A DNA stretch of 52,632 nt from Clostridiales bacterium (GTDB taxonomy: Bacteria > Bacillota > Clostridia > Lachnospirales > Lachnospiraceae): contig JAJQCD010000018.1 of NCBI GenBank assembly GCA_021202925.1, forward strand, positions 1 through 52,632, read 5' to 3'. Position numbers and translations under genes: made by a program. The notes under the pieces were generated by a model. It ran no database searches. It saw nothing but the letters and a program-made list of their open reading frames with translations, and had not been told where the DNA came from. How positions within the stretch are numbered: the stretch's first letter is position 1; the number at the start of each line of letters is the position of its first letter. Shown one piece after another: positions 1,436 to 47,916 of the stretch.

Positions 1436-2592
1436 TGTCCATCGTAATAATCGGTATTCTGGTAGTCATTGGAAGCGGAAACCTCGAAATCCGTCTCAAA
1501 CTCGTCATAAACGCCCTCTTCCTGATAATCAATTCCCATCTGCTCAAAGAGCCCCATTTCTCTTGCCTGCGTCTCGCTTTTGATATCGATCTTATAACCG
1601 GTCAGTCTTGCCGCCAGTCTTGCGTTCTGACCTTCCTTACCGATCGCGAGAGACAGCTGGTAATCCGGAACAATCACCTGTGCCTCGCGCACCTCTTCAT
1701 CCGCCACCACGCAGATGACCTTCGCCGGACTCAGGGCATTCTCAATCAGGAACGCCGGGTTCTCATCCCAGGTAATGATGTCTATCTTTTCTCCCCGCAG
1801 TTCATTTACCACGGAATTCACACGGGCGCCATTCAGGCCCACACACGCGCCCACCGGATCAACGTTGGCGTCGTGGGACGTCACCGCCATCTTCGTCCGC
1901 GACCCCGCCTCGCGGGCAATCGCCTTAATCTCTACCGTACCGTCGCGAACCTCCGTCACTTCTTCCTCAAACAGGCGCTTCACCAGATCCGGATGCGTCC
2001 GGGATACGGAAATCCGGGGTCCCTTCGGCGTATCCTTGACTTCAAGGACGAACACCTTGATCCGCTCGGTCGGCCGGAATACTTCGCCTTTGACCATCTC
2101 GGACTCATTCAGAATGGCGTCGACCCGTCCCAGATTAACGCTGACGTTGCGCCCAAGATATCGCTGCACGATACCGGTCACCACATCCTTCTCCTTGCGG
2201 TACCACTCGTTGAACTGCATGCTGCGTTCTTCCTCGCGGATCTTCTGCAGAATCACATTCTTCGCGTTCTGCGTCGCGATTCGTCCAAAAGATTTGGATT
2301 CGATCGGCACCGGCACCGTATCGCCGATTTCGTATCTCGGATCCTTCATTTTGGCCTCAGCAAGGCTGATCTGAAGAACCGGATCCTCCACTTCCTCCAC
2401 AACCTCTTTTGATGCGATCACAGAGAAATCACCGGTCTCCGGATCGATCGTCACCTTCACGTTGTCCGCCTTGCCAAAATGATTCTTGCACGCGGTAAGC
2501 AGAGAATTTTCAATCGCTTCCAGAAGAGTTGTCTTGCTGATATTTTTCTCCTTCTCAAGCAAATCCAACGCTTCAATTAATTCTTTATTCAT
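1432..2592 (-). CDS. nusA: Transcription termination/antitermination factor NusA
   Basis: NusA binds RNA polymerase and nascent RNA and modulates pausing, termination and antitermination. The 386-aa product has the N-terminal polymerase-binding domain (MNKELIEALDLLEKEKNISK), an S1 domain around residues 135-200 (VVTGIVQRYLGRNVSVNLGR) and two KH domains with GACVGLNGARVNSVVNEL and AIGKEGQNARLAARLTGYKI. The length is normal for Firmicutes, which lack the C-terminal acidic repeats of proteobacterial NusA. The tail is acidic and Tyr/Asp-rich. It follows rimP after a gap of about 80 bases and is coupled to ylxR by overlapping stop and start codons. Confidence 0.97.
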   Translation of the reverse strand: MNKELIEALDLLEKEKNISKTTLLEAIENSLLTACKNHFGKADNVKVTIDPETGDFSVIASKEVVEEVEDPVLQISLAEAKMKDPRYEIGDTVPVPIESKSFGRIATQNAKNVILQKIREEERSMQFNEWYRKEKDVVTGIVQRYLGRNVSVNLGRVDAILNESEMVKGEVFRPTERIKVFVLEVKDTPKGPRISVSRTHPDLVKRLFEEEVTEVRDGTVEIKAIAREAGSRTKMAVTSHDANVDPVGACVGLNGARVNSVVNELRGEKIDIITWDENPAFLIENALSPAKVICVVADEEVREAQVIVPDYQLSLAIGKEGQNARLAARLTGYKIDIKSETQAREMGLFEQMGIDYQEEGVYDEFETDFEVSASNDYQNTDYYDGQ

Positions 2593-2670
2593 GACTTTTT
2601 CATCCTCCTATTTCTCAAAACCCACGGATCAGAGCCAATAAAACCAGCCGTCAGCAGCTTTCTGCCCATG

Positions 2671-3141
2671 TCACGGCATCTCAAAGGCCAGTCTGACTAA
2701 CGCAATCTCTCCGCGTGCGAACACTTCCTCGCCGCCATCCTCCGTGCCGATCGTCACCGTATCTTTATCGTATCCATTCAGAGTTCCGGCAAATTCCTTC
2801 TGTCCGTCCCGGGGACGATAAAGCCGGATCTCAATCTCCTCACCCAGGCTCCACTCAAAGTCACGATCCTTCTTCAGCGCCCGGCCGAGTCCCGGAGAGC
2901 TGACCTCCAGCACATAACTGTCTTCGATAAAATCTTCTCTGTCCAGCCAGTCGCTCAAAGACCGGCTGACTGTCTCGCAGTCGTCCACGGTAATTCCGCC
3001 TTCTTTATCAATATAGGCTCTCAGATACCAGGTTCCTGCTTCCTTCACATATTCCACATCCCACAATTCGAATCCATGCTCAGCCAGAAGCGGCAGCAGA
3101 AACTTCTCCGTCCTTGACTCGTATCCCTCTCGTCTTGTCAT
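2671..3141 (-). CDS. rimP: Ribosome maturation factor RimP
   Basis: RimP is needed for 30S subunit maturation. The 156-aa protein has the family motifs GFELWDVEYVKEAGTWYLRAYID, GGITVDDCETVSRSLSDWLD and YVLEVSSPGLGRALKKDRDF, followed by a C-terminal Sm-like beta domain. The ATG at 3141 has GAAAGAGGTGATT upstream. It is the first gene of the rimP-nusA-ylxR-ylxQ-infB operon, transcribed from a promoter about 120 bases upstream. Confidence 0.96.
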   Translation of the reverse strand: MTRREGYESRTEKFLLPLLAEHGFELWDVEYVKEAGTWYLRAYIDKEGGITVDDCETVSRSLSDWLDREDFIEDSYVLEVSSPGLGRALKKDRDFEWSLGEEIEIRLYRPRDGQKEFAGTLNGYDKDTVTIGTEDGGEEVFARGEIALVRLAFEMP

Positions 3142-3211
3142 CCAATCACCTCTTTCATCTTCCCATCATACATTAACTATATGGCAAATAACCATGCAAA
3201 ACACATAAAGT

Positions 3212-3235
3212 AAGAGTGGACCGGAGTCCACTCTT
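3212..3235. promoter_or_regulatory. 10-bp inverted repeat in the rimP-nusA leader
   Basis: The arms AAGAGTGGAC and GTCCACTCTT are perfectly complementary with a 4-nt loop. On the minus strand the hairpin lies inside the presumed 5' leader of rimP and is followed by ACTTTATG. On the plus strand it is followed by TTATTG, upstream of the ABC ATPase gene. It could be an attenuator or a protein operator; neither strand shows a strong uridine tract. Confidence 0.6.
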
Positions 3236-3264
3236 TATTGTCAGTCTGTTATGTTATCATGTGT

Positions 3265-3293
3265 ATTGTAGCACCGGTCTTAAGGAAATGCAA
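3265..3293 (-). promoter_or_regulatory. Promoter of the rimP-nusA-infB operon
   Basis: On the minus strand TTGCAT (3293-3288), a 17-nt spacer and TACAAT (3270-3265) form a SigA-type promoter. Transcription would start near 3258, giving a leader of about 115 bases before rimP that contains the 3212-3235 hairpin. Confidence 0.65.
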
Positions 3294-3320
3294 GAGTTTT
3301 TTCACGTTTTGGAGGTATTT

Positions 3321-4235
3321 ATGAGCACGAAACTTCTGGTCCATCATATCAGCAGCTCTTATCATTCGCCGCGCGGGGCGACTCCGGCACTCTCGGACGT
3401 CTCTTTTTCCGTAGAAACAGGAGAGTTCTTCGCGATTGTCGGCCCGTCCGGCTGTGGCAAATCAACCCTGCTCTCGCTGATTGCCGGGCTGATGCAGCCC
3501 GAGGAAGGAAGCATTCTGCTTGACGGCCTTCCGGTCTCCGAGGCAAAATCCCACGTCGGATATATGCTGCAGCGCGATCATCTGTTCGAATGGCGCACCA
3601 TCTACGGCAATGTTTCTCTCGGCCCGGAAATCCGGGCGCGAAAAGAGCATCCCTTCGCCGCGCTGCCATTCCCGCATCCGCGACGCCGGAATCTGCCGCC
3701 CGCAGCTGCAGCCATATACTCCGGCCAGTCCGAACATCCGTACCAGGATCGACTGCTGCGGATGATGCAGGAATATGGTCTTTCCGGTTTCGAACAGGCG
3801 CGCCCGTCTGCGCTCTCCGGCGGCATGCGTCAGCGCGCCGCCCTGATCCGCACGCTGGCGCTGGCTCCGGAACTGCTGCTCCTGGACGAACCGTTCTCCG
3901 CACTTGATTACCAGACCAGGCTCTCCGTCTGCGACGACATCAACGGCATTATCCGCAGCAACGGAAACACCGCCATCCTCGTCACCCACGACCTGTCTGA
4001 AGCAATCAGTACCGCAGACCGTATTCTTGTCCTCTCAGCGCGTCCTGGCAGGGTAAAAGCGATTCTTCCCGTCTCCTTTGATCCGCAATACGACAGTCCG
4101 TTAAAACGCAGAAACGCGCCGGAATTTTCCCGTTATTTCAACCGGCTCTGGGCTCTCCTGCGTACCGACGAGACCAGGCGACAGGATCCGCCGCAGGCAT
4201 TTCCCTCCATATGTCAGGAAAATGAGGAAGAATAG
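3321..4235 (+). CDS. ABC transporter ATP-binding protein (nitrate/sulfonate/taurine type), orphan
   Basis: This is the ATPase subunit of an importer of the SsuB/TauB/ThiZ class (304 aa). Walker A GPSGCGKST is at about residues 41-49, the Q-loop glutamine near 84 (YMLQRDHLFEW), the signature LSGGMRQRAALIRTLA near 165, Walker B LLLLDEPFSALD near 188 and the switch histidine in LVTHDLSEA. The helical domain holds a Pro/Arg/Ala-rich stretch of roughly 35 residues (HPRRRNLPPAAAAIYSG) between the Q-loop and the signature that is unusual for the class. The ATG at 3321 has GGAGG seven bases upstream. No permease or binding protein lies next to it. Its stop directly abuts the stop of the convergent membrane-protein gene. 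Substrate unknown. Confidence 0.85.
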   Translation: MSTKLLVHHISSSYHSPRGATPALSDVSFSVETGEFFAIVGPSGCGKSTLLSLIAGLMQPEEGSILLDGLPVSEAKSHVGYMLQRDHLFEWRTIYGNVSLGPEIRARKEHPFAALPFPHPRRRNLPPAAAAIYSGQSEHPYQDRLLRMMQEYGLSGFEQARPSALSGGMRQRAALIRTLALAPELLLLDEPFSALDYQTRLSVCDDINGIIRSNGNTAILVTHDLSEAISTADRILVLSARPGRVKAILPVSFDPQYDSPLKRRNAPEFSRYFNRLWALLRTDETRRQDPPQAFPSICQENEEE

Positions 4236-5891
4236 TCAGGCGTCTGCGCGCCCTCTTTTCCGGCTCATGACCACGAGCAGAACCGGCGCACACAGCAGCG
4301 TGCCGAACATGTAACGAATCTGAATGCAAGGGCCGAGCGCAAGTGTCAGAACATAGGCAAACAGATACAGCGGACCGGCCATTTCCAGATACCGTTTCTC
4401 CGCAAACAGCGTTCCGAGACAGAAATACAGCACCCAGGCGTAAAACGAGGTGTAGAACACCATTCCGACCAGAGGAAACGTCCGGCGGATGTTTTCGTTC
4501 TGAAACCACCGATAGGCCTCCTGCAGCGCGGGCAGCCGGCTGTCCGGCTCGATGACATGCGCATCATCAAATATCCACGCCTGCCCGAAATCCACATAAC
4601 AGCTGGAGTCGCCGGTCAGATACCAGAGTCCCATCGTGTTATATAGCGGCGACAGGATATATTCTGCCGGATATTCCCGTCCCAACCGGGCCCAGAGCGA
4701 CACAAACCCGCCCGGATCCTCCTTCACGCCAATCAGATTCAGCCCCGATTTCACCGGATCGGAGAGATAGTACGTATAACCATTCAGAGACACCTCCGGA
4801 ATATAATAAAACAGCTGTTCTTTTTCCTCCTCCGTCATCTCATCCCCATGGTAAATCCAGGTTCTTGCCAGCTGCTGGCAGGGAACGCTGAGCATCTCCG
4901 CAACGCTGCCCTCATATGCATCAAACACCCGGATCAGGGCCCGGTTCATCCCGCCGATTCCGGCCGCACAGACCAGAAACAACACCGTGATCTGCAGAAG
5001 AAGAGGATTGCTTTTTCTGCGGACCGCATGATGCAGGCAGGCAATCGCCAGAGCGATCAGAACAAACAGGACTCCGTAGACGGCATTGTTGCGAAACAGC
5101 CCCATCAGAATCATGACGATCGCAAAAAGCGCCAGCCGCCAGCCGCGGTATAACGCATGTCCGTAGGTCATCTCCGCCAGCCCCACGATGACAATCAGAC
5201 AGAGTGCGCCGTAGATCACATCCTTCGTCGTGCTGATTCCCATGATCGGAAAGAAGGGGAAAAGCATGTAAAATGCCGCCGCCGTCACCCACACCTTCTT
5301 TGGGGTGCGAATCTTTACCAGCCAGCGGACGGCAAATGCCACACTGCCGGAAAGAATAAGCAGCTGGAAAAGGGCATACAGCGCCAGCCCTTCATTCCAG
5401 GAGCCAAAGAGCTGGCGCCCCAGCCGAAATAGCGTTCCGGACAGCCAGGTGTGAAGCAGCGAATGATGCGTACTATATCCCTCTCCCTCATACATCGACC
5501 ATTGCCAGCCGATATCATAGGTATAAAGTCCGGGATAGAACGCCAGGAAGCAGGGAATCCAGGCAAGGAAGGTAAGAATCCAGGACATCGCAAATACGCG
5601 ATTCGGATGACGGGCCGGACCATCTGCGGTACCCTCACGCCAGCCGGCTCCCATCAGACGAAACAAAAGTGGCTCCGCCACTGTCGTCAGCGCCAGCGTC
5701 CCAACCGCAAAAAGTAAAACCGTCCCAACGCCCGGTAGTGCCACTCTCTCATCCATGGCCGACCGCAGAAGCGAGCCTCCCAGAAATTCCGAAAACAGGA
5801 GCAGAAAAGACAGCAGGGAGGCCACCACGGCCCTCCTCCTGTCTGCCGCAAAGTCCTGCATGATCCACATTCTGTTCCATCTGCTTCGCAA
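4236..5891 (-). CDS. Large polytopic membrane protein, DUF6020-like
   Basis: The protein (about 551 aa) has many hydrophobic segments, for example ASLLSFLLLFSEFLGGSLL, LLFAVGTLALTTVAEPLLF, LTFLAWIPCFLAFYPGLY and VPVLLVV near the C-terminus. A loop after the third segment, YDIGWQWSMYEGEGYSTHHS followed by LLHTWLSG, resembles the extracytoplasmic loop of DUF6020 and glycosyltransferase-like membrane families. I set the start at TTG 5891, which has AGGAGG eight bases upstream; the first ATG (5870) lacks a ribosome binding site. It follows holA by about 38 bases and is likely co-transcribed. No function can be assigned; a lipid-linked sugar or cell-envelope role is only a guess from topology. Confidence 0.72.
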   Translation of the reverse strand: MRSRWNRMWIMQDFAADRRRAVVASLLSFLLLFSEFLGGSLLRSAMDERVALPGVGTVLLFAVGTLALTTVAEPLLFRLMGAGWREGTADGPARHPNRVFAMSWILTFLAWIPCFLAFYPGLYTYDIGWQWSMYEGEGYSTHHSLLHTWLSGTLFRLGRQLFGSWNEGLALYALFQLLILSGSVAFAVRWLVKIRTPKKVWVTAAAFYMLFPFFPIMGISTTKDVIYGALCLIVIVGLAEMTYGHALYRGWRLALFAIVMILMGLFRNNAVYGVLFVLIALAIACLHHAVRRKSNPLLLQITVLFLVCAAGIGGMNRALIRVFDAYEGSVAEMLSVPCQQLARTWIYHGDEMTEEEKEQLFYYIPEVSLNGYTYYLSDPVKSGLNLIGVKEDPGGFVSLWARLGREYPAEYILSPLYNTMGLWYLTGDSSCYVDFGQAWIFDDAHVIEPDSRLPALQEAYRWFQNENIRRTFPLVGMVFYTSFYAWVLYFCLGTLFAEKRYLEMAGPLYLFAYVLTLALGPCIQIRYMFGTLLCAPVLLVVMSRKRGRADA

Positions 5892-5929
5892 GCTCCAATC
5901 CTCCTCCTGCGCTCTCCTGTCCGGGAAAG

Positions 5930-6919
5930 TTATCCATATTTCTTTGTGATCAGAAGCTCCACCGCGAGCCGATCCTGCATTCTTCCCGTCTTTACCGCCT
6001 CCTCTGCGTCGACACAAAGCTGCACATAAGACAGGATCTGCTCCCTGGTAAATATCTTCGCCTGCGGCATCGTACGACCGACGACAAACGGCTTCATCTT
6101 CAGTTTCGTAGCAATCGTGTTTCTGTCGCACCCCTGTCCCATCAGCTCCTTTACCTGGAGAATCTCGTTAAACTGACGCGCGATCAGATACAGAATCCGC
6201 ATCGGCGGCTCCTTCAGCGTCAGAAGGTCTTCATAGAGTTCCATCGCCTTCTTTGGCTGGCGGTTCGCGATTGCCGCCACCATATCAAAGATCCGGTTCG
6301 TCACCCGCACGGAACCGATTGCCCGCACATCCTCCTCCGTGATCACCTCACGCCCATAAGTATAGCTGATCAGCTTTTCCAGCTCCATACGGATATTTTC
6401 CATATCGTCGCCGGTCATACCCAGGAAATATTCCATCGTGCGACCGGTAATTTTCTTTCCCGCCTTTGAGAGAATTCCTCCGGCCCAGCGCGACAGCATG
6501 GCCGGACTCTGCCTCCCCAGCTCCGCCGCGTATCCCCGTTCCTTTACCTTCTTATACAGTCGGCTCCGCTTATCCACTTCAGACTCCACAAACACCAGAC
6601 AGGTTGTCTCCGGCATTGTCGGCAGGTAAGTAACCAGTGTGTCCGGCGCACTTTTAAACATACCGCTGTCCTCCACCAGAACCATCCGCTTTTCCGCGAA
6701 AAAAGGCATCGTATCCGCCATACGGATCAGTTCATCCACATCCACATTTTTTCCCACGAACGTCGTAACGTTCATCGTATCTTCGCCCACGACCGCTTCC
6801 CGCAGCTGTTTCTTGTAGCTGTTCTTCAGAAACGTTTCTTCTCCGTACAGAAGATACACCGGCCGGAAGGTACGGTTTTTGATATCCTGATTTAACGTCT
6901 GCATCTTATTCTTTCCCAT
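5930..6919 (-). CDS. holA: DNA polymerase III subunit delta
   Basis: HolA is the delta subunit of the clamp loader, which opens the beta clamp. The 329-aa product starts with the typical PVYLLYGEETFLKNSYKKQL and carries FFAEKRMVLVEDSGMF, CLVFVESEVDKRSRLYK and the C-terminal AKIFTREQILSYVQLCVDAE segment. The gene overlaps the end of comEC by 14 bases. The comEC-holA order is common in Firmicutes. The final residues ITKKYG are followed by the downstream membrane-protein gene. Confidence 0.93.
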   Translation of the reverse strand: MGKNKMQTLNQDIKNRTFRPVYLLYGEETFLKNSYKKQLREAVVGEDTMNVTTFVGKNVDVDELIRMADTMPFFAEKRMVLVEDSGMFKSAPDTLVTYLPTMPETTCLVFVESEVDKRSRLYKKVKERGYAAELGRQSPAMLSRWAGGILSKAGKKITGRTMEYFLGMTGDDMENIRMELEKLISYTYGREVITEEDVRAIGSVRVTNRIFDMVAAIANRQPKKAMELYEDLLTLKEPPMRILYLIARQFNEILQVKELMGQGCDRNTIATKLKMKPFVVGRTMPQAKIFTREQILSYVQLCVDAEEAVKTGRMQDRLAVELLITKKYG

Positions 6920-13709: not shown

Positions 13710-14255
13710 TTATAGCGATTGCCGGCTCTGTTCCCGGAGATGTCCCCGCAGGAAGCACAAAAAGTCATTTTGGGCTTCCGCAAGCGGCCGGTCGTTGTCG
13801 TAATACCAGTCGTAATCGCCCTGCTCCACCTCGTCGTCCGAGCGGTTGCCCCAGCTCGGAGAAGCTGCGCCGCGCCGGATCAGCAGCGTATAACAGGGCG
13901 TCTGCCCCATGGCAAGGATACGTTCTCTGAATTTGCGGATTTCTTCGATCTCCCGGATGTGTACAAAGAGAAGTTCTCCGTCGCTTTCGAGGAAGTTCCG
14001 GTATTCCGCTTCCAGATAGCGGCAGGGCGCGTCACAGTAATCCACGAGAAGCGCCTTCAGGTCCGAAAGGAATTTTCTCGATTTTGAATCCTTTCGTTCG
14101 TCGCTCCAGCCCGCATAGTTGCGGGCAATCTCCTTCACCTGATCGACCGAAGAGCGATTCGCCACACGATACTCCGCGGCTGCGAACCCACACAGCGTGT
14201 CCTTGCCCACACCCCCGGCTCCGTTTATGATAATGACTGCTTTTCCCTGCATCAT
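13710..14255 (-). CDS. P-loop kinase, dNMP-kinase-like
   Basis: The 181-aa P-loop NTPase has Walker A GAGGVGKDT near residues 13-21 (VIIINGAGGVGKDTLCGFAA), which resembles deoxynucleotide monophosphate kinases and related small-molecule kinases. Other recognisable segments are RSSVDQVKEIARNYAGW and the strand ELLFVHIREIEEIRKFRE. The C-terminus contains an acidic/aromatic stretch (DYDWYYDNDRPLAEAQNDF). An ATG at 14255 with GGAGG ten bases upstream starts the gene, 15 bases downstream of the stop of the EF-G/NYN fusion, so they are probably co-transcribed. The substrate is not determinable from the sequence. Confidence 0.72.
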   Translation of the reverse strand: MMQGKAVIIINGAGGVGKDTLCGFAAAEYRVANRSSVDQVKEIARNYAGWSDERKDSKSRKFLSDLKALLVDYCDAPCRYLEAEYRNFLESDGELLFVHIREIEEIRKFRERILAMGQTPCYTLLIRRGAASPSWGNRSDDEVEQGDYDWYYDNDRPLAEAQNDFLCFLRGHLREQSRQSL

Positions 14256-14270
14256 GACTGTCCATCCTCC

Positions 14271-17147
14271 TCATTCTTCTGTCCCGCGTAGCTTCTTTAA
14301 ACCGGCGCGCGTCTCCTCGTCCACGCCGGCAAACAGTCCCGCCTTCTGCGGTCGTTCCAGACGTTCCAGATTCTCTGCGATCCATCCGTCTGCCCGGGCA
14401 ATGTCTTCCCGCAGCTCCTTTGCCGACATCAGGATACAGCCCTGTCCGTGAATGATCAGCTGCTCCAGTCCATCGGACGTCGCTACCGTCACGCGATATT
14501 TACGGCCAATCCGGTGAGCCAGCTTCTCGATATACTGATCCGCCGTCTCCGCCTCCTTCGTGTAGACCACATGAATGTTGTGGTAGTCCTGTGCACTGCC
14601 CAGTCCGCCCGTCACCTTGTACGCGTCAAACACGACAATCAGCGTACAGCCCCGGTAAGGCTGATAATTGCACAGAATATCCATCAGGTGGCGTCTGGCG
14701 CCGTCAATCGTCGTCTCCGCCAGTTCGCGCAGCTCCTCCCATGCATAGATGATGTTGTAACCGTCTACCAGAAGGTATTCCGGCAGCTTCGCCGCCGATT
14801 TGCGGTCATAACCGGGACGGCCCATCGTCGGCAGGGCATCTGCCCGGCTCCCGCCGCGATCCGTCCCCTCGCCAAAAGCAGCCGCAGATTCTCCTCCACG
14901 GTATGTCACACGCCTCGGACTGCTCTCTGCTATCGTCCTTCGCCTGCTCTCGCCGTACGTCCGCGTAAAAATCGCTTCCAGCTCCTTCTCGTCCGCGCCA
15001 TATGCACGGGAGCCGGTTCGCTCCGGGACAGCCGACACGCCGCCCCGTCCGGCAAGTCTCCTGACTGTGGGAAACGTCTCCTCCTGACCGGCAGCCGTCT
15101 CCCGGTCTGCCTCCGGCTCCCCGCTCCACCGGCGGATTACGGCCGCCACCGCGGGCGGCGTCTGCAGATGCATATACTGTTTTACCTCATCCCATGGCAC
15201 CACGAATCCGGCACCGTGCGCACAGAAAACCGAACCGGTCGGATTCTCCATATCCGCATCCGCCTCGTAATGGATGGCGGCAATCACCTCATCCTCGTTC
15301 TGACATGGAAAATATCCCGCCAGATCGCAGGCGAGCCTCCCCCGCCCCTTCGTGTAAGAGACGAGCTCCCGCTGATAATCCCGCATCGCGCGCACCGGCG
15401 CCGTTCCCGTCATCACCATCTGCTCACCGTCCGGCTCCGGTCCCAAAAAGGTCCCGTTCATCTGTTCCAGATCCGTCATCGCCCGTCCGACATTCTCCGC
15501 CGGGATCTCCAGCCGGAACTGATAAAACGGCTCCAGTAACCTGCACTGCGCTTCGCACAGCCCCTGCCGGACCGCCCGGTACGTCGCCTGACGGAAATCA
15601 CCGCCCTCCGTATGTTTCAGATGCGCCCGTCCGGCGACCAACGTAATCTTCATATCCGTGATCTCCGAACCTGTCAGCACGCCCCGGTGGCTTTTCTCCT
15701 CCAGATGAGTCAGGATCAGTCTCTGCCAGTTCCGGTCCAGCACATCCTCGCTGACTGCCGCCTCAAACTGCAGGCCGCTCCCCGGCTCCCCCGGCTCCAT
15801 CAGAAGGTGAACCTCCGCGTAATGGCGCAGCGGCTCAAAATGGCCGACGCCCTCCACCGGATTTACAATCGTCTCTTTGTATACAATATTCCCCGTTCCG
15901 AAGCGGACATCCACACCGTAGCGTTCCAGAATCCGCGCCCGCAGAATCTCCGTCTGCACATCACCCATGATCTGCACCTGGATATCTCCATGTTCTTCAT
16001 CCCAGACCACATGCAGTTCCGGCTCTTCATCCTCCAGCTGGCGGATGTTCCGGAGCATCTGCGCCGCATCACAGCCCTCCGGCAATTCCAGCCGACAGGT
16101 CAGCACCGGTTCCAGTACCGGCAGCTCCGATTCCCGCTCCGCGCCCAGCCCCTGTCCCGGACGGGTCTCTGAGGGTCCCGTCACAGCGCAGACCGTACCC
16201 GCGTCTGCCTCCGTCACACTCTCGTATTTCATCCCGGAATAGATACGGATCTGATTCACCTTTTCCTGCGTCCCCGGCAGACACTCCTTCACCTTCAACG
16301 TACCGCCTGTCACCTTCAGATGCGTCAGGCGGTTGCCCTGGCCATCGCGCGTAATCTTAAAGACCTTCGCTCCGAAATCCGCGTTCTTTTTCCCGCTGCT
16401 CCGGCTCCACATACGGATTCCGGAGAGCAGCTCCGATATTCCCTTCACCCTCAGCGCAGAACCGAAGAAACAGGGAAACAGCTTCCTCTCCGCGATCATC
16501 CGCCGCACATCCGCTGCCTTTACCTTTCCCGACTCCAGGTAGCTCTCCAGCACGGCCTCATCGCAGACAGCAAGGTTCTCCAGCCACGCTTCCGGGCGCC
16601 CCTTCAGCCATTCATCGCCCCGTACCGCGCGTTCCGACAACGTATCCCGCACATCGGCCTCACCGTCCCGGCTGTCCCAGCCGCCGAAATCCACACATCC
16701 GTCGTCCAGCCGTTGCCACAGCTCCTCCATCAGCCGTTCCCGGTCTGTCCCGGCCTGATCCATTTTGTTCACAAACAGAACCGTCGGAATCCGGTAACGC
16801 CGAAGCAGCCGCCACAGCGTCTCGGTATGTCCCTGCACTCCGTCCGCGCCGCTCACCACCAGCACCGCATAATCCAGCACCTGCAGAGTCCGCTCCATCT
16901 CCGGAGAAAAATCCACATGTCCCGGCGTATCCAGAAGCGTCATGCTCCGGTCACCCAGCGGAAATACCGCCTGGCTGGAAAAAATCGTGATCCCCCGCTC
17001 CCGCTCAATCTCGTCAGTGTCCAGGAACGCGTCCCGGTTATCCACCCGTCCCAGCCTGCGGATGCTGCCGGTCAGATACAGCATCGCTTCCGACAACGTT
17101 GTCTTCCCTGCGTCCACATGCGCCAAAATTCCGATTACCAGTTTCAT
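14271..17147 (-). CDS. EF-G/Tet(M)-like translational GTPase fused to a C-terminal NYN (YacP/Rae1-like) domain
   Basis: The 958-aa protein joins two parts. Residues 1 to about 650 are an EF-G-like GTPase of the ribosomal-protection class: G1 AHVDAGKTT, switch region ERERGITIFSSQ, DTPGHVDF, VNKMDQAG, then EF-G domains II-V including GHFEPLRHYAEVHLLMEPGE. A linker rich in Arg, Gly and Glu follows (about 650-788). From about 790 comes a NYN domain starting EYLLVDGYNIIYAWEELREL, with further acidic positions in VVFDAYKV, AETADQYIEKL and VATSDGLEQLI. YacP/Rae1 NYN proteins cleave mRNA in the ribosomal A site, whereas Tet(M)-type proteins act at the same site. The fusion thus suggests a ribosome-rescue or mRNA-cleaving factor; tetracycline resistance should not be assumed. 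The start at 17147 gives MKLVIGILAHVDAGKT. Confidence 0.88.
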   Translation of the reverse strand: MKLVIGILAHVDAGKTTLSEAMLYLTGSIRRLGRVDNRDAFLDTDEIERERGITIFSSQAVFPLGDRSMTLLDTPGHVDFSPEMERTLQVLDYAVLVVSGADGVQGHTETLWRLLRRYRIPTVLFVNKMDQAGTDRERLMEELWQRLDDGCVDFGGWDSRDGEADVRDTLSERAVRGDEWLKGRPEAWLENLAVCDEAVLESYLESGKVKAADVRRMIAERKLFPCFFGSALRVKGISELLSGIRMWSRSSGKKNADFGAKVFKITRDGQGNRLTHLKVTGGTLKVKECLPGTQEKVNQIRIYSGMKYESVTEADAGTVCAVTGPSETRPGQGLGAERESELPVLEPVLTCRLELPEGCDAAQMLRNIRQLEDEEPELHVVWDEEHGDIQVQIMGDVQTEILRARILERYGVDVRFGTGNIVYKETIVNPVEGVGHFEPLRHYAEVHLLMEPGEPGSGLQFEAAVSEDVLDRNWQRLILTHLEEKSHRGVLTGSEITDMKITLVAGRAHLKHTEGGDFRQATYRAVRQGLCEAQCRLLEPFYQFRLEIPAENVGRAMTDLEQMNGTFLGPEPDGEQMVMTGTAPVRAMRDYQRELVSYTKGRGRLACDLAGYFPCQNEDEVIAAIHYEADADMENPTGSVFCAHGAGFVVPWDEVKQYMHLQTPPAVAAVIRRWSGEPEADRETAAGQEETFPTVRRLAGRGGVSAVPERTGSRAYGADEKELEAIFTRTYGESRRRTIAESSPRRVTYRGGESAAAFGEGTDRGGSRADALPTMGRPGYDRKSAAKLPEYLLVDGYNIIYAWEELRELAETTIDGARRHLMDILCNYQPYRGCTLIVVFDAYKVTGGLGSAQDYHNIHVVYTKEAETADQYIEKLAHRIGRKYRVTVATSDGLEQLIIHGQGCILMSAKELREDIARADGWIAENLERLERPQKAGLFAGVDEETRAGLKKLRGTEE

Positions 17148-17191: not shown

Positions 17192-17220
17192 ACTGTATCA
17201 AGAATCCATTTCTTTGTCAA
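17192..17220 (-). promoter_or_regulatory. Promoter of the EF-G/NYN fusion gene
   Basis: On the minus strand TTGACA (17220-17215), a 17-nt spacer and TACAGT (17197-17192) stand directly after the ftsH terminator hairpin and about 50 bases before the start codon. Confidence 0.6.
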
Positions 17221-17268
17221 GACAGGGGATGCCGGGCGGCGCGCATGCGTCGTCCGGCATCCCCTGTC
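17221..17268 (-). terminator. 15-bp hairpin downstream of ftsH
   Basis: GACAGGGGATGCCGG and CCGGCATCCCCTGTC pair perfectly around an 18-nt GC-rich loop that can fold further. It begins about 14 bases after the ftsH stop. The following TCTTG is a weak uridine tract on the minus strand, but position and stability fit a terminator that separates ftsH from the next promoter. Confidence 0.7.
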
Positions 17269-17281
17269 AGCCTTTCTGTAT

Positions 17282-19096
<1,815 letters not shown>

Positions 19097-33622: not shown

Positions 33623-36082
33623 CTAGCAGTTTATCCGTTCAGCGGCCAGAAATTGCAGCCTGTCTCCGTCCTTTGTCACCTTTACTTCATCGCCCGCGCA
33701 GACCCTTCCATCCAGAACAGCCTCTGCCAGTTTGTCCTCCAGGTGATTCTGAATCGCCCGCCGCAGCGGCCTCGCGCCATACTTTTCATCATAGCCCTTC
33801 TCCACCAGAAAGGCTTTCGCGCTCTCATCGACATCCAGCTTCAGATTCATCTGGCGAACCGTCCGCTTGCCGATGCTGCTCAGCATAATCTCTACGATTT
33901 TCTTCATTTCTTCCAGCGTAAGCGGATGGAAGACGATCGTTTCATCGATACGATTCAGAAATTCCGGTTTGAAAATGCGCTTCACTTCTTCCATCACCCG
34001 GTTCTTCATAAACTGATACCGCTCTCCCGCATCATCCGATGCGGCAAATCCAAGCCGCTTAGGAGAAATGATATTCTCCGCGCCTGCGTTCGACGTCATA
34101 ATCAGAATCGTATTCTTAAAGTTGATTTTTCTGCCCTGCGCGTCTGTAATATGGCCGTCATCCAGTACCTGCAGAAGAATGTTAAATACGTCCGGGTGTG
34201 CCTTTTCAATCTCATCAAAGAGAATCACAGAATAGGGGTTGCGGCGCACCTTCTCACTGAGCTGGCCGCCCTCATCGTAACCCACATATCCAGGCGGAGA
34301 GCCAATCATCTTCGAGACGCTGTGCTTCTCCATATATTCCGACATATCCACACGAATCAGGGCATTCTCCGTGCCAAACATTGCCTCCGCGAGCGCCTTG
34401 CACAATTCCGTCTTGCCAACGCCGGTCGGACCCAGGAACAAAAATGAACCAATCGGGCGCTTCGGATCCTTCAGTCCCACCCGGCCGCGGCGGATCGCAC
34501 GGGATACCGCGGAGACAGCTTCCTCCTGCCCGACCACCCGCTCATGAAGAATGGTTTCCAGCTTCTTTAAGCGTTCCGTCTCTTCCTCTTCCAGCTTGCG
34601 TACCGGAATCTTCGTCCATCCGGACACGACATCCGCGATCTCACCCTCGCCGACAATCAGTTTGCGAGCCGTCTTCTCTCGATCCCACTTTGCACGCAGC
34701 CTGGCGATCTCTTCCCGTTTCCCTTCCTGCAGCTTTTTGATCTCACCGGCTTTCTCGTAAGCCTCATCCTTGATCGCCGACTCCTTCTGCTGCTCCATGG
34801 CATCAATCTCATTCTCCAGCTCCCGGATCTCTGCCGGCTCCACATACGTCGTCAGGCGAACCTTCGAAGAAGCCTCGTCGATCAGGTCAATCGCCTTGTC
34901 CGGCAGGAAGCGGTCATTGATATACCTGGCAGACAGCCGTACCGCCGCAACCAGCGCATCATCGGTAATCGTTACACGATGGTGATCTTCATATCTGGGA
35001 CGCAGTCCCTGAAGAATCCGAATCGATTCTTCCTCGGTCGGCTCATCGACCGTTACCGGCTGAAACCTTCGTTCCAGTGCCGCATCCTTCTCAATATACT
35101 TCCGGTATTCCTCAATCGTCGTCGCGCCGATCAGCTGAATCTCTCCACGGGCCAGAGACGGTTTCAGAATATTCGACGCGTCAATCGCCCCCTCCGCGCC
35201 CCCGGCGCCGATAATGGTATGAATCTCATCGATGAAAAGCAGGACCTCTCCGTCTTCCTTTACCTCGGAGAGAACCTTCTTGATCCGCTCCTCAAACTCA
35301 CCGCGATACTTCGACCCGGCCACCATCCCTGACAAATCGAGTGTCAGGACCCGCTTGTCTGCGATAATATCCGGAATATCGCCCGACGCAATCATCTGCG
35401 CCAGCCCTTCCACCACTGCAGTCTTCCCGACGCCGGGCTCTCCGATCAGGCACGGATTGTTCTTCGTCCTGCGGCTCAGGATCTGGACGACCCTCTGGAT
35501 CTCCAGCTCTCTTCCAATCACCGGGTCCAGCTTTCCCTCCCGGGCCAGCGCCGTCAGATCGCGGCTGTAACTGTTCAGGGTCGGCGTACTGGTCTTTCCT
35601 CTGGATCCCTTCGCTCCCTGCAATTCCTCCCGGCCGGCTGGCGCGTCCTCACCCATAGCGGCCAGCAATTCCACATACAGCTTCTGCAGACTGATTCCCA
35701 TCGTGTTTAACAGCCTGGCTGCCACACAGTCATTTTCACGGATCAGCGCGATCAGCAGATGCTCCGTGCCAATTAACGGCGCCTTAAAGCGCACGGCCTC
35801 CCGATAGCTGTTTTCCAGGACCCGGGTCGCACTCGGCGTATACGTGCTCCTCTCTATCATTCCCACCGACTGGTTCGGGGAAATCAGCTGGTTCACCAGC
35901 TGCAGCACCTTCTCTGCGGTCACTCCACACGAATCCAGCACTCTTGCGGCAACGCCTTCTTCTTCCTGTATCAGTCCGATCAGCAGATGCTCGGTTCCCA
36001 CATAGCTGTGCCCAAGCGCCTCCGCTGCATCGACGGCGAGACCGATCGCCTGCCTCGCCTGCTCTGTAAAACGATCAATCAT
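33623..36082 (-). CDS. clpC: ATP-dependent Clp protease ATPase subunit ClpC
   Basis: ClpC unfolds proteins for ClpP. The 819-aa protein has two N-terminal Clp_N repeats (SYVGTEHLLIGLIQEEEGVA and RFKAPLIGTEHLLIALIREN), the first AAA domain with GEPGVGKTAVVEGLAQ, a UVR-containing middle region, and the second AAA domain with FLGPTGVGKTELCKALAE, followed by the C-terminal ClpB_D2-small domain. The ATG at 36082 has GAGGAGG upstream. It follows mcsB by 25 bases in the mcsA-mcsB-clpC order. Confidence 0.97.
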   Translation of the reverse strand: MIDRFTEQARQAIGLAVDAAEALGHSYVGTEHLLIGLIQEEEGVAARVLDSCGVTAEKVLQLVNQLISPNQSVGMIERSTYTPSATRVLENSYREAVRFKAPLIGTEHLLIALIRENDCVAARLLNTMGISLQKLYVELLAAMGEDAPAGREELQGAKGSRGKTSTPTLNSYSRDLTALAREGKLDPVIGRELEIQRVVQILSRRTKNNPCLIGEPGVGKTAVVEGLAQMIASGDIPDIIADKRVLTLDLSGMVAGSKYRGEFEERIKKVLSEVKEDGEVLLFIDEIHTIIGAGGAEGAIDASNILKPSLARGEIQLIGATTIEEYRKYIEKDAALERRFQPVTVDEPTEEESIRILQGLRPRYEDHHRVTITDDALVAAVRLSARYINDRFLPDKAIDLIDEASSKVRLTTYVEPAEIRELENEIDAMEQQKESAIKDEAYEKAGEIKKLQEGKREEIARLRAKWDREKTARKLIVGEGEIADVVSGWTKIPVRKLEEEETERLKKLETILHERVVGQEEAVSAVSRAIRRGRVGLKDPKRPIGSFLFLGPTGVGKTELCKALAEAMFGTENALIRVDMSEYMEKHSVSKMIGSPPGYVGYDEGGQLSEKVRRNPYSVILFDEIEKAHPDVFNILLQVLDDGHITDAQGRKINFKNTILIMTSNAGAENIISPKRLGFAASDDAGERYQFMKNRVMEEVKRIFKPEFLNRIDETIVFHPLTLEEMKKIVEIMLSSIGKRTVRQMNLKLDVDESAKAFLVEKGYDEKYGARPLRRAIQNHLEDKLAEAVLDGRVCAGDEVKVTKDGDRLQFLAAERINC

Positions 36083-36107: not shown

Positions 36108-37139
36108 TCACAGCACGACCGGCAATTCCGCACGCAGATAATCTGCCCGTGCCCGGTCAATCTCAGCCTTTCCCAATGGCCGGTCCGAACGTTTCTGAAG
36201 GTTCGCCGGCTGAATACCAAGCATCAGACGATACACCTGAAACGGGCTCTCTGTCCTGAGGACGCCGGTTGATATGCCAAGCATAATCTGGGAAAGCAGC
36301 ATCATGGCATCCTTGCGCGTCAGCCTGCGGGCATATTTCAGAATACCATATGACTTGTATGCCTCATCTTCCCTCTCCAGCCTGTGCTTCTCCAGCGACA
36401 GGTTCCTGACCTGCTGCTCCTGCGCAGCCAGCTGTATCGCAACCTTGGAAACCAGATCAATGATTTCTTTCTCACTCAAACCAAGTGTCCGCTGATTGGA
36501 TACCTCATATAAGGCTCCGTAATTCTCATCGCCTTCTCCGTACACACCCTTGACGATCGCTCCAAACCTTCCCATCTCTGCCACCAGGCCGCTGAACTTC
36601 TTGCCCTGGCAGAGTGTCGGTAAATGAAGGATCACCGATGCGCGCATCCCTGTGCCGACATTTGTCGGAAATGCAGTCAGATATCCATACTTATCGTCAA
36701 ACGCATAAGAAAAACGTTCATTCACATAATCGTCCAGCTGATCCACGCACTTCCACAGCTCATCCAGATGAAAGCCAGTCGACACCACCTGCAGCCGGAT
36801 GTGATCACTCCCGTTCAGAAGAATCCCCGTATCCTCTTCTTCTGACAGATACAGACCGGTCGGCGCCTTCCTGGCCGCGATCGTTGAATTAAACACCCGG
36901 CGCTCCCAGAGCGCCTTCCGCTGCAGCTCATCCACTTCCTTCAGATAACAGTATTCGTATCGCCTGCCATCAAATCCACTGATATCCTTCAATCCAAATT
37001 CCAGGCGATGGAGCATTTCCTCACTGTCCCGTTCGGACAGCTTCGCCGGAAAGACATATTCATCCCAATTGCGTGCCAGACGCACCCGGCTGCTGACCAC
37101 ACCCGGGCGCCCCTCGTCCGCTCTCTCGTACCATTTCAT
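36108..37139 (-). CDS. mcsB: McsB-like protein-arginine kinase homologue with altered active site
   Basis: McsB belongs to the phosphagen-kinase family and marks proteins with phospho-arginine for ClpCP. The 343-aa protein keeps the fold landmarks SSRVRLARN, NVGTGMRASVILHLP, GVYGEGDENYGALYEVSNQR and a C-terminal pArg-site-like IDRARADYLRAEL. Two hallmark positions differ: the catalytic-glutamate motif NEEDH reads NGSDH, and the reactive cysteine of CPTN reads FPTN (codon TTT at about residue 165). In B. subtilis these are Glu121 and Cys167. The protein may therefore be a non-catalytic adaptor. The ATG at 37139 has GGAGG ten bases upstream; a GTG at 37148 is less likely. Confidence 0.9.
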   Translation of the reverse strand: MKWYERADEGRPGVVSSRVRLARNWDEYVFPAKLSERDSEEMLHRLEFGLKDISGFDGRRYEYCYLKEVDELQRKALWERRVFNSTIAARKAPTGLYLSEEEDTGILLNGSDHIRLQVVSTGFHLDELWKCVDQLDDYVNERFSYAFDDKYGYLTAFPTNVGTGMRASVILHLPTLCQGKKFSGLVAEMGRFGAIVKGVYGEGDENYGALYEVSNQRTLGLSEKEIIDLVSKVAIQLAAQEQQVRNLSLEKHRLEREDEAYKSYGILKYARRLTRKDAMMLLSQIMLGISTGVLRTESPFQVYRLMLGIQPANLQKRSDRPLGKAEIDRARADYLRAELPVVL

Positions 37140-37166
37140 CGCAATCACACCTCCGGTATCCTTCTG

Positions 37167-42456: not shown

Positions 42457-43869
42457 TTATACCGGATATGCCTTGTCAGCCACATCCGCCACCGTGGAAT
42501 CCACCCGTGTCTGCTGAGCCTCGCGATACTTGAAGAACTCCTCCGCTACCTTCGGGAACAACGCATAGGAAAGGACATCCTCGTCCTGCTGCTTCCACTG
42601 TGCGCACTCCTTTTCGAACTGCGGCAGCTGCGGCGGGATCAGGTCTGCCGGACGGCAGGTGATCGGCGTCTCATTGCCGATGATCTTCTTCTGTACCTCC
42701 GGATTGAACGGTTTCACCGTCTGTCCGAACTCACCAAGCATAATCTTCTTGGACTCCTTCGGAACCAGCTTGTAACGCTCACCGGCGATGACATTCATCA
42801 CGGCCTGCGTACCGACGATCTGAGAGGATGGCGTGACTAACGGCGGTTCGCCAAAGTCCTTCCGCACGCGCGGAATCTCTTCCAGCACATCTCGATACAG
42901 ATCCTCTCTGCCTGCCTCTTTCAGCTGGCTGACCAGATTGGAGAGCATACCGCCCGGCACCTGATAACGCAGAGTCTTGATATTCACGCCAAGGACCTTG
43001 GTATTCAGAAGACCCGACTTGATCGCTTCCTCACGAATCGGAGTAAAGTAATCCGCAATGTCCGCAAGGATATCCTGGCTCAATCCGGTGTCATAGGGCG
43101 TACCCTTCAGAGTTTCAACCATTACTTCCGTCGCCGGCTGGCTGGTACCCAGAGCCAGCGGAGAAATCGCGGTATCAATACGGTCGCAGCCTGCTTCCAC
43201 TGCCTTCAGATAGGTCATGGACGCAACGCCGGACGTATAATGCGTATGCAGATCAATATCAAGTGAGGTGGACTCCTTCAGAGCCGTCACCAGTTCCTGT
43301 GCCGCATACGGAACCAGAAGACCAGCCATATCCTTGATACAGATGGAATTGGCACCCATATCCTCGATCCGCTTCGCGATATCCTTCCAGTAATCCAGGG
43401 TATACGCGTCGCCCAGCGTATAGCTCAGGGCGATCTGAACCTCTGCTTTTTCCTTGTTGGCCGCCTTAACCGCGGTCTCCAGATTGCGCAGGTCATTCAG
43501 GCAGTCAAAAATACGAATCACATCAATACCGTTCGCCACAGACTTCTGCACAAAATATTCTACCACATCATCTGAGTAGTGATTGTAACCCAGAATATTC
43601 TGGCCACGGAACAGCATCTGCAGTCTGGTATTCTTAAATCCGGCTCTCAGCTTTCTCAGTCTGTCCCACGGATCCTCCTTCAGGAAGCGCAGGCAGGCGT
43701 CAAACGTCGCACCGCCCCAGCACTCGACCGCATAATATCCGACCTTATCCATCGTGTCGATGATCGGAAGCATCTGTTCGGTCGTCATTCTGGTCGCCAT
43801 CAGAGACTGGTGTGCATCACGAAGACCGGTTTCCACGATCTTAACCGGCTTTTTCTGAATCTCTGCCAT
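42457..43869 (-). CDS. oadA: Carboxyltransferase subunit, oxaloacetate decarboxylase alpha / pyruvate carboxylase B type (5S-like)
   Basis: The 470-aa protein has the biotin-dependent oxaloacetate/pyruvate carboxyltransferase TIM barrel: IVETGLRDAHQSLMATRMTT, ECWGGATFDACLRFLKEDPW, then LQMLFRGQNILGY and ICIKDMAGLL. The metal-binding DLHTHYTSG is present. It lacks a C-terminal biotin domain; a separate biotin carrier is encoded three genes upstream. The length matches the 5S subunit of transcarboxylase and stand-alone OadA. The ATG at 43869 follows a GGAGG. It is the last gene of the operon. Confidence 0.9.
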   Translation of the reverse strand: MAEIQKKPVKIVETGLRDAHQSLMATRMTTEQMLPIIDTMDKVGYYAVECWGGATFDACLRFLKEDPWDRLRKLRAGFKNTRLQMLFRGQNILGYNHYSDDVVEYFVQKSVANGIDVIRIFDCLNDLRNLETAVKAANKEKAEVQIALSYTLGDAYTLDYWKDIAKRIEDMGANSICIKDMAGLLVPYAAQELVTALKESTSLDIDLHTHYTSGVASMTYLKAVEAGCDRIDTAISPLALGTSQPATEVMVETLKGTPYDTGLSQDILADIADYFTPIREEAIKSGLLNTKVLGVNIKTLRYQVPGGMLSNLVSQLKEAGREDLYRDVLEEIPRVRKDFGEPPLVTPSSQIVGTQAVMNVIAGERYKLVPKESKKIMLGEFGQTVKPFNPEVQKKIIGNETPITCRPADLIPPQLPQFEKECAQWKQQDEDVLSYALFPKVAEEFFKYREAQQTRVDSTVADVADKAYPV

Positions 43870-43899
43870 AATATATCTTACCTCCATGTTTTAGTCTAG

Positions 43900-45048
43900 T
43901 TAAACACCGAATATCGCCATAAAGGTACCGGCCGCAACGGCTGTACCGATCACGCCTGCCACGTTCGCTCCCATCGCGTGCATCAGCAGGAAATTCGTCG
44001 GATCCGCTTCCGCGCCGACCTTCTGAGAGACACGGGCCGCCATCGGCACCGCGGATACACCGGCCGAACCGATCAGCGGATTGATCTTGCGGCCAGTCGC
44101 ATAACAGAGGATCTTGCCCAGGATCACACCTCCGGCCGTACCAAACGCAAACGCGACCAGACCAAGGAACACAATCTTTAAGGTCGTCGCCTTCAGGAAC
44201 GCTTCCGCACTCGTGCTCGCGCCGACAGAAGTACCAAGCAGAATGACGACGATGTACATCAGCGCATTGCTTGCGGTCTCAGTCAGCTGCTTCACCACGC
44301 CGGACTCCCGGAACAGATTGCCCAGCATCAGCATACCGACAAGCGGAGCCGTGGTCGGCAGAATCAGGCAGACGATAACCGTAACCACAATCGGGAACAG
44401 GATCTTCTCCAGCTTTGACACCGGACGGAGCTGTTCCATACGGATCTCACGCTCTTCCTTCGTGGTCAGAAGCTTCATGATCGGCGGCTGAATAATCGGA
44501 ACCAGCGACATGTATGAATATGCCGCCACCGCAATCGGTCCCATAAACTCGGACTGCCCCAGCTTACCGGCCAGGAAAATGGAGGTCGGGCCGTCTGCTC
44601 CGCCGATGATGGAGATCGCTGCTGCCGCCTTATCATTGAATCCGAGGAAAATTGCCAGGAAATACGCCATATAAATACCCAGCTGCGCCGCCGCACCCAT
44701 CAGGAAGCTGATCGGGTTCGCAATCAGCGGTCCAAAATCCGTCATGGCGCCTACGCCCATGAAGATCAGGGACGGCAGGATACTCCACTCATCCAGAATA
44801 TAGAAATAATGAAGCAGTCCGCCCACGCCATTGGACATGTCCTTCGGCTCCGCCATGATATCCGGATAGATATTCACGAGCAGCATGCCGAACGCGATCG
44901 GGAGAAGCAGAAGCGGCTCAAACCCCCATTTAATCGCCAGATACAGGAACACGAACGCTACCAGGATCATGATGAAGTTTCCGTATGTCAGGTTAAAAAA
45001 CGCGGTCTGGTGAACTAAATTTCCCAGTGTTGTACTTATATATTCCAT
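43900..45048 (-). CDS. oadB: Sodium ion-translocating decarboxylase beta subunit
   Basis: OadB/MmdB/GcdB decarboxylates the carboxybiotin and pumps Na+ across the membrane. The 382-aa protein has polytopic segments and conserved motifs: GGADGPTSIFLAGKL near residue 165, LLMLGNLFRESGVV and the C-terminal NPLIGSAGVSAVPMAARVSQ and LLMHAMGANVAGVIGTAVAA. The ATG at 45048 has GGGAGGG upstream. It lies between the biotin carrier and the alpha-type subunit. Confidence 0.93.
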   Translation of the reverse strand: MEYISTTLGNLVHQTAFFNLTYGNFIMILVAFVFLYLAIKWGFEPLLLLPIAFGMLLVNIYPDIMAEPKDMSNGVGGLLHYFYILDEWSILPSLIFMGVGAMTDFGPLIANPISFLMGAAAQLGIYMAYFLAIFLGFNDKAAAAISIIGGADGPTSIFLAGKLGQSEFMGPIAVAAYSYMSLVPIIQPPIMKLLTTKEEREIRMEQLRPVSKLEKILFPIVVTVIVCLILPTTAPLVGMLMLGNLFRESGVVKQLTETASNALMYIVVILLGTSVGASTSAEAFLKATTLKIVFLGLVAFAFGTAGGVILGKILCYATGRKINPLIGSAGVSAVPMAARVSQKVGAEADPTNFLLMHAMGANVAGVIGTAVAAGTFMAIFGV

Positions 45049-45092
45049 TCTAATCCCTCCATAGGAACCTGCATCGTCTTACGATACAGGCT

Positions 45093-45482
45093 TTAGTTCA
45101 AGGTAGCCAGGGTGGCTCCGGACTCTACGGAGTCGCCGACCGATACGTTCACGGTTGCAATCGTTCCGTCCTGCGGAGCGACGATGTCGTTCTCCATCTT
45201 CATCGCTTCCATCACCATGATCGCATCGCCCTTCTTGACTGCCTGTCCCGCTGTCGCCTTCACAGACAGAATCTTGCCCGGCATTGGTGCGGTGACGGTA
45301 ACAGAACCAGCCGCGCCTGCCGGTGCCGCCGGAGCAGGAGCCGGTGCCGCCACAGGAGCTGCCGGTGCCACGGGAGCCGCCGCAACCGGCGCCGCTGCCG
45401 CCACAGGAGCTGCACCGCCTGCGCCCTCTTCCACTGTTACAGCATATGCCTTACCATTGACTGTGATTGTATATGTCTTCAT
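45093..45482 (-). CDS. Biotin carboxyl carrier protein subunit
   Basis: The 129-aa protein has an N-terminal strand (MKTYTITVNGKAYAVTVEEG), an Ala/Pro-rich flexible linker and a C-terminal biotinyl domain with PMPGKILSVKATAGQ and the biotinylation motif VMEAMKMENDI. It shuttles the carboxyl group between the transferase subunits and the Na+ pump. The start at 45482 is preceded by AGGAGG. Confidence 0.95.
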   Translation of the reverse strand: MKTYTITVNGKAYAVTVEEGAGGAAPVAAAAPVAAAPVAPAAPVAAPAPAPAAPAGAAGSVTVTAPMPGKILSVKATAGQAVKKGDAIMVMEAMKMENDIVAPQDGTIATVNVSVGDSVESGATLATLN

Positions 45483-45509
45483 AATCAGAAATCCTCCTGT
45501 CTGGAATTA

Positions 45510-46337: not shown

Positions 46338-46353
46338 ATACCTGTCACCTCAT

Positions 46354-47808: not shown

Positions 47809-47916
47809 ATTGCAAACCTCCATTTTGTAGTATTGTCACGACCTGCCGCACCGCACGGCGTCCGCATGGACAACCTGCGGCAAATCGCTTGGTAAAACCA
47901 ATTTCTGCCGAGTTTA

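Follow-up and report, generated by a model that had tools for sequence, protein, structure and literature searches.

NYN-fused relatives of the tetracycline-protection (Tet) GTPases have been in print since 2015. The passage of Atkinson 2015 devoted to them (PMC4342817) describes Tet proteins that carry a YacP-like NYN domain in ten Clostridiales species, suggests in one sentence a possible resistance role for them, and refers to a previous proposal of rRNA and tRNA maturation by YacP-type NYN domains. Rae1, the nearest studied relative of this nuclease domain, destabilises mRNA in a translation-dependent manner, as stated in the portion of PMC10100781 used here. We analyzed a stretch of 52,632 nucleotides (hereafter the window; positions 1 to 52,632 of contig JAJQCD010000018.1, assembly GCA_021202925.1) from a Clostridiales bacterium of the family Lachnospiraceae. 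One open reading frame (ORF) at 14271..17147 on the reverse strand encodes, from an ATG start, a 958-residue protein that joins an EF-G/Tet-like translational GTPase to a NYN_YacP nuclease. The presence of both domains in one protein of the Clostridia places it among the NYN-fused Tet-like GTPases, as far as the passage of Atkinson 2015 describes them, and the fusion itself is therefore not new. New here are the placement of the GTPase, the wider spread, the motif in the linker, the free-standing relatives of both halves, and the finding that a free Rae1 is rare beside the fusion. Leroy 2017 and Condon 2018 are reportedly the main Rae1 papers; our literature search, which did not cover the primary Rae1 papers, found no further title on the fusion. 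The protein is probably a house-keeping, ribosome-targeted endonuclease that cuts mRNA on paused ribosomes, a Rae1 with its own translational GTPase as carrier or timer.

The domain search upheld the two-domain reading of the original prediction, which had been made from the DNA letters and had proposed a GTPase joined to a YacP/Rae1-type nuclease. The GTPase core (residues 1-618, 15294..17147, on the reverse strand like all parts of the gene) comprises the Pfam domains GTP_EFTU (residues 4-244, 2.1e-50), EF-G_D2 (residues 259-328; 8.7e-6, 26.2 bits, slightly below the cut-off of 27), EFG_III (residues 346-417, 2.3e-9), EFG_IV (residues 420-534, 1.1e-18), and EFG_C (residues 536-618, 2.5e-19). 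With domain 2 slightly under its Pfam cut-off, domains G, 2, III, IV, and V and the GTPase motifs are those of an EF2-type translational GTPase. The tip of domain IV, as placed by alignment, lies at residues 506-518 (GRAHLKHTEGGDF; 15594..15632). The core is followed by a C-terminal extension with the motif SVFCAHGAGFxVxW (residues 619-668, 15144..15293), present in fused and free members, and by a mostly fast-evolving linker (residues 669-790, 14778..15143), within which a conserved stretch (residues 719-737, 14937..14993) contains the motif DxELxxIFxRTYG. The C-terminal part was identified as NYN_YacP (residues 792-954, 14286..14774; 4.2e-49, 167.2 bits against a cut-off of 24.6, profile positions 1-165 of 166). 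It matches the Bacillus subtilis YacP/Rae1 structures 5mq9 (3e-29) and 5mq8 (7.4e-29) over nearly their full length, and the proposed link to Rae1 stands on these matches and on the aligned acidic residues described below. The GTPase-nuclease fusion is real, and its coordinates are exact.

Two alignments were used to follow the catalytic signatures: 148 NYN rows (121 fused, 119 of them distinct, and 27 free, including B. subtilis Rae1) and 131 GTPase rows (112 fused, 110 of them distinct, and 19 free). The D795, N798, D841, D870, and D892 of the window protein align with D7, N10, D53, D81, and D104 of Rae1, and these positions are invariant in all 121 fused and all 27 free NYN rows. These residues have a catalytic role. 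In the GTPase half, the AHVDAGKTT, T54, DTPGH, and NKMD of the window protein are intact. The P-loop AHVD[AS]GKTT is found in 127/131 rows, and DTPGH, including its histidine, which has a catalytic role, in 130/131. The fourth motif reads NKMD in 102 rows and NKTD, NKLD, NKID, or TKMD in 28 further ones, so that the commonest form of each motif is present in at least 102 of the 131 rows. Both halves look active because the catalytic residues of the NYN domain and the GTPase motifs are kept across the rows; the earlier statement that both sets are present is thereby confirmed.

An assembly error as the source of the fusion is ruled out by its occurrence in 22 of 24 genomes of the same genus, in 140 of 391 genomes of the class, and in 80 of 80 loci from named genomes. 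The class survey was one draw, searched with NYN_YacP and with an 89-column marker of the C-terminal part of the GTPase. NYN_YacP matched in 249 genomes. The marker matched in 206 at E <=1e-3 and was counted only if better than 1e-15 (164 genomes), because matches near 1e-4 were taken as EF-G background. Genomes were scored as carrying the fusion if the two matches lay close together on one contig, as judged by eye from the match listings; in one genome (G224) they lie on different contigs, and counting it as fused would give 141. The open frame reaches at least 841 aa in 127 of the 140 fusion genomes and 313-789 aa in the other 13, several of which lie near a contig start. A free GTPase occurs in 23 genomes, 15 with a separate NYN and 8 without, NYN only in 93, and neither in 134. 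The fused genes span 26 family codes. Within the genus, the frames measure 909-1006 aa; in the other two genomes (94 and 97% complete), no NYN and no match to the fusion gene were found, and the GTPase search met only translational GTPases of other kinds (30% identity or EF-G-like parts). From the phylum, 299 genomes were drawn, some of them shared with the class draw, and searched for the GTPase only; 20 gave matches better than 1e-15, with frames of at least 857 aa in 18 and of 651 and 657 aa in two. The named-genome loci are the best 80 of 591 confirmed stretches, chosen by similarity to the fused proteins. All 80 have the GTPase and NYN matches in a single ORF, and 77 have the whole GTPase; L109 and L114 are without the GTPase start, and L131 has most of the GTPase on another ORF. 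Their titles are those of Clostridia, such as Lachnospiraceae, Oscillospiraceae, Ruminococcus, Butyrivibrio, Anaerovorax, Intestinimonas, and Fusibacter.

Several single loci depart from these arrangements. At L141 (genome G221, 2541-4163 and 4398-5255), the GTPase is divided between two ORFs, with the G domain separate and the other ORF fused to NYN. The one broken gene among the 23 free GTPases (L166, genome G237, 4246-6182) is split into two ORFs in a genome without NYN match. A free relative of the GTPase (45%) was met in a Lactobacillales species, on the Ligilactobacillus salivarius plasmid NZ_CP137609.1 (L173, 4001-5886), where it was matched in two pieces and no gene is listed. A viral origin was rejected after a search of viral contigs with the single protein as query gave no relative; the NYN part matches 23 plasmid and 13 phage records.

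The fused protein is usually the organism's only Rae1-type protein, because the fused NYN is the only copy above the cut-off in 138 of the 140 fusion genomes. The window's own genome likewise holds a single NYN copy, the fused one. Five fusion genomes show two NYN matches. The second is weak and below the family cut-off (about 5e-4) in G136, G201, and G242; G133, a genome 61% complete, has two fused copies on different contigs (frames of 894 and 890 aa), and G330 has one fused and one free copy, which makes a free NYN beside the fusion a case of one in 140. Among the genomes without the fusion, a separate NYN accompanies 15 of the 23 with a free GTPase, against 93 of the 227 without one (p 0.03, uncorrected for kinship). 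Genome G243 is the only one of 16 genomes of its family in the draw with the halves apart. Its free NYN shares 56% identity with that of the window and groups with the fused NYNs, and its GTPase falls in the free clade, an arrangement that may go back to a fission or represent a sister from before the fusion.

The number of fusion events was approached with trees of both halves. In the GTPase tree of 72 rows (49 of the 112 fused and the 19 free), the fused members do not form one clade: the starred branches force two changes, and L156_F lies outside at 96. In the NYN tree of 78 rows, the fused L156, L141, L126, L045, and L153 stand among the free ones on unstarred branches. Both results speak against a simple story. 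The reduced trees omit some rows that fell outside the main fused group. With 45 rows, the fused GTPases form one clade, with support of 49 against the outgroups; with 51 rows (without L141, L126, and L153), the fused NYNs and the free NYN of G243 lie on one side at 96, where the AU p of 0.661 for the G243 placement does not separate fission from a pre-fusion sister. A single fusion event is thus possible, the reduced trees giving one group where the larger ones do not.

The GTPase had been described as EF-G/Tet(M)-like, and the EF-G-type domain layout agrees with this; it does not, however, belong to the Tet(M) group. By profile scores and tree placement, the GTPase is outside the tetracycline-protection proteins and constitutes a separate subfamily. 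It scores 435.6 bits on NCBIfam tet_protect, below the threshold of 775, as do four other members (389-442 bits), against 853 for the control Tet(O/W/32/O); on the EF-G model TIGR00484 it reaches 298.6 bits, below the cut-off of 659.4. A single clade (100) unites the fused and free GTPases; the Tet proteins (two sequences) form another (100), and so do two EF-G-type genes of the window's own genome (100). That genome has two genes with an EF-G domain IV besides the fusion gene. The domain-IV tip reads H-x-K-H-T-E-G-G-D-F, and in the alignment its Lys511 stands where Tet(S) and Tet(O/W/32/O) have their drug-loop proline. The equivalent residue of TetM, Pro509, sits in the drug site according to the portion of PMC8161019 cited here. 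At this position, lysine occupies 129 of 131 rows and proline none; a proline one residue earlier occurs in 9 rows, the window not among them. The tip is much alike in free and fused members, and the task of the GTPase on the ribosome is therefore probably independent of the fusion. The original prediction had warned against annotation as a tetracycline-resistance protein, and rightly so: in RefSeq, the relative from Agathobacter rectalis is called 'TetM/TetW/TetO/TetS family tetracycline resistance ribosomal protection protein', and that from Monoglobus 'translation factor GTPase family protein'. Searched against a defence library, the GTPase gave a single weak match, LeoA (0.00074), which we took as general GTPase likeness.

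The region between the two halves was examined in an alignment of 70 sequences. The extension has no Pfam match, and C615 at its edge and C642 inside it are invariant. Solved EF-G and Tet chains match chiefly the domain-V side of the 89-column marker, and the 19 free GTPases have their ends at the extension or no more than some dozen residues away. The linker has a median length of 74.5 residues (range 55-139; 122 in the window). In its motif, E722 is kept in 68/70 sequences, I726 in 69/70, R729 in 57/70, T730 in 59/70, and G732 in 57/70. None of the 19 free GTPases, which stop before its position, shows the stretch. Evolutionary rates, given as dN over the dS of the GTPase for 46 of 120 pairs among 16 same-genus sequences, are 0.142 for the GTPase, 0.145 for the extension, 0.118 for the motif, 0.092 for the NYN domain, and 0.26 for the C-terminal tail, against 0.80 and 0.52 for the linker outside the motif. 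The linker motif thus evolves at much the same slow pace as the folded domains, and the rates indicate that both domains and the motif are under purifying selection. We take DxELxxIFxRTYG to be a putative docking element of the fusion.

Delivery of the nuclease to paused ribosomes by the GTPase is plausible. By analogy with EF-G, TetM, and TetO, the GTP-bound EF-G-like part would dock at the factor site of a ribosome with an empty A site and place domain IV in the decoding region. The domain-IV tip (KHTEGGDF) and the C-terminal extension may then select the ribosomes that are engaged. The tethered NYN domain (on 55-139 residues), possibly parked through DxELxxIFxRTYG, would enter the A site once domain IV withdraws after GTP hydrolysis, because both could not occupy one site simultaneously, and would cut the mRNA there as proposed for Rae1. 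The truncated message would pass to ordinary decay, and the ribosome to rescue. A more specific form of this mechanism is tentative: the protein could be a GTP-timed mRNA cutter whose domain IV probes the A site of a stalled ribosome and in which GTP hydrolysis swaps in the motif-docked Rae1 nuclease. If so, a large share of gut Clostridia would have a bacterial version of no-go decay in a single protein, timed by GTP hydrolysis so that slow ribosomes are separated from dead ones.

Several points weigh against a coupled, ribosome-directed mRNA endonuclease. Free NYN occurs without such a GTPase in 93 of the 391 genomes, and the GTPase without NYN in 8; therefore neither half strictly needs the other. 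Free Rae1 works in B. subtilis, where it is not known to have such a GTPase partner. A loose pattern for the second half of the linker motif is met in just 54/70 sequences. The rates left out 74 of the 120 pairs (GTPase dS of at least 2, or without a value), and dS, with a median of 1.53, approaches saturation, which makes the absolute ratios rough; the contrast between regions counts, not the values. The literature search gave no functional data for any fusion member. The separability of the halves leads to one alternative, that a stand-alone GTPase and a Rae1 were joined for co-expression only, with no mechanical coupling. The 23 genomes with free GTPase and the 93 with only free NYN agree with it, as does a linker that for the most part evolves fast and varies in length; the linker stretch, conserved like the folded domains but without a counterpart in the 19 free GTPases, and the retention of a free NYN in just one of 140 fusion genomes, make it rather improbable.

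The substrate could also be another RNA. EF-G-like GTPases often act outside elongation, and this counts for a role in maturation or surveillance of rRNA or subunits, in which the GTPase would bind ribosomes that are assembling or idle, for the NYN domain to trim or destroy rRNA or tRNA there. The maturation proposal that Atkinson 2015 cites in the passage mentioned (PMC4342817) points the same way. We consider this unlikely, given that Rae1 acts on mRNA and in a translation-dependent manner (PMC10100781, in the portion used) and that the gene is unmatched in 2/24 same-genus genomes, with 134/391 class genomes lacking both GTPase and NYN; therefore it is not needed by all. A resistance role, in which the fusion would free the ribosome of tetracycline or another A-site drug with the nuclease as part of the resistance, was suggested in that same passage (PMC4342817) and draws on the RefSeq name of the A. 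rectalis relative and on identities of about 29% with Tet(M) and Tet(O), covering 91-92% of a 670 aa query. Tetracycline protection is unsupported by the tet_protect score (436 bits against 775, with 853 for a true Tet(O/W/32/O)), the separate clade, and the lysine at the Pro509 position, and presence across 26 family codes and 22/24 same-genus genomes is as for a core gene. These points concern tetracycline, leaving room for other drugs, and we regard the resistance role as a whole as very improbable. Cleavage of mRNA on paused ribosomes by a GTPase-borne Rae1 accordingly remains the reading we prefer.

The surroundings of the gene offered no constant partner. A P-loop NTPase gene (13710-14255, reverse strand, 181 aa) starts 15 bases after the fusion gene and has a weak AAA_18 match below the Pfam cut-off. 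The suggestion that this kinase-like gene belongs to the system had to be dropped: among 61 genomes searched, it was found only in the window's own genome and in none of the 60 related ones, 23 of them of the same genus. Directly upstream lies a gene for an FtsH-type AAA protease (17282-19096, reverse strand). It was rejected as a partner, because no FtsH match covering half the query was found in the fetched loci besides the window and a promoter-like site precedes the fusion gene itself. Behind ftsH, an inverted repeat (about 17221-17268) was read by eye, which is absent from the list of the terminator scan. Just after it, about 45 bases before the ATG, lies TTGACA-N17-TACAGT with a TG (17192..17220, reverse strand), which suggests a putative promoter of the fusion gene's own; such sites number 4 in the 3.8 kb scanned against 1.6 expected. 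Of 114 loci, which are of mixed lengths and may include spurious ORFs, at most 15 share any one neighbour family, and this most recurrent cluster (15/114) matches the histidine kinase of the window. Rfam gave no matches in the window at gathering thresholds. Elsewhere in the window, a ClpC-type AAA ATPase adjoins an ATP:guanido phosphotransferase domain (33623-36082 and 36108-37148, reverse strand), presumably the layout of the McsB-ClpC pair, and 42457-47823 (reverse strand) holds genes like those of a sodium-pumping decarboxylase (carboxyltransferase, gamma, beta, and PYC_OADA parts).

The family is common in the class survey (140/391 genomes), occurs in gut-type Clostridia, and has hardly been studied. 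A Rae1 tied to a translational GTPase makes it testable whether the GTPase gates mRNA cleavage on the ribosome, and the tetracycline-resistance name of at least one member in RefSeq could distort resistance counts in gut genomes. Compared with known systems, the NYN-fused Tet proteins in the passage of Atkinson 2015 have the same architecture in the same bacterial group, and that they belong to one family with the fusion is very probable; the present analysis puts the GTPase outside the Tet clade and finds a much wider spread. Tet(M), Tet(O), and Tet(S) share the five-domain EF-G-like layout, with 28-30% identity in the listed rows. Unlike them, the fusion falls in a separate clade and has a different domain-IV tip, a C-terminal extension, and a NYN domain. 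EF-G shares the domain layout and GTPase motifs with the fusion, which differs from it, too, in clade and domain-IV tip and in the nuclease domain. The whole NYN domain is shared with Rae1/YacP of B. subtilis (3e-29) and the aligned acidic residues are kept, but Rae1 is a free protein of 170 aa, whereas in the fusion the Rae1-type NYN is the C-terminal domain of a GTPase. SmrB of E. coli is a nuclease of the SMR fold that senses collisions. It cleaves mRNA at collided ribosomes, as described in the part of PMC10897456 used here, and what the fusion would share with it is the idea that a nuclease recruited to stalled ribosomes cuts the message. The analogy is functional only: the fusion differs from SmrB in its NYN fold and in carrying a translational GTPase.

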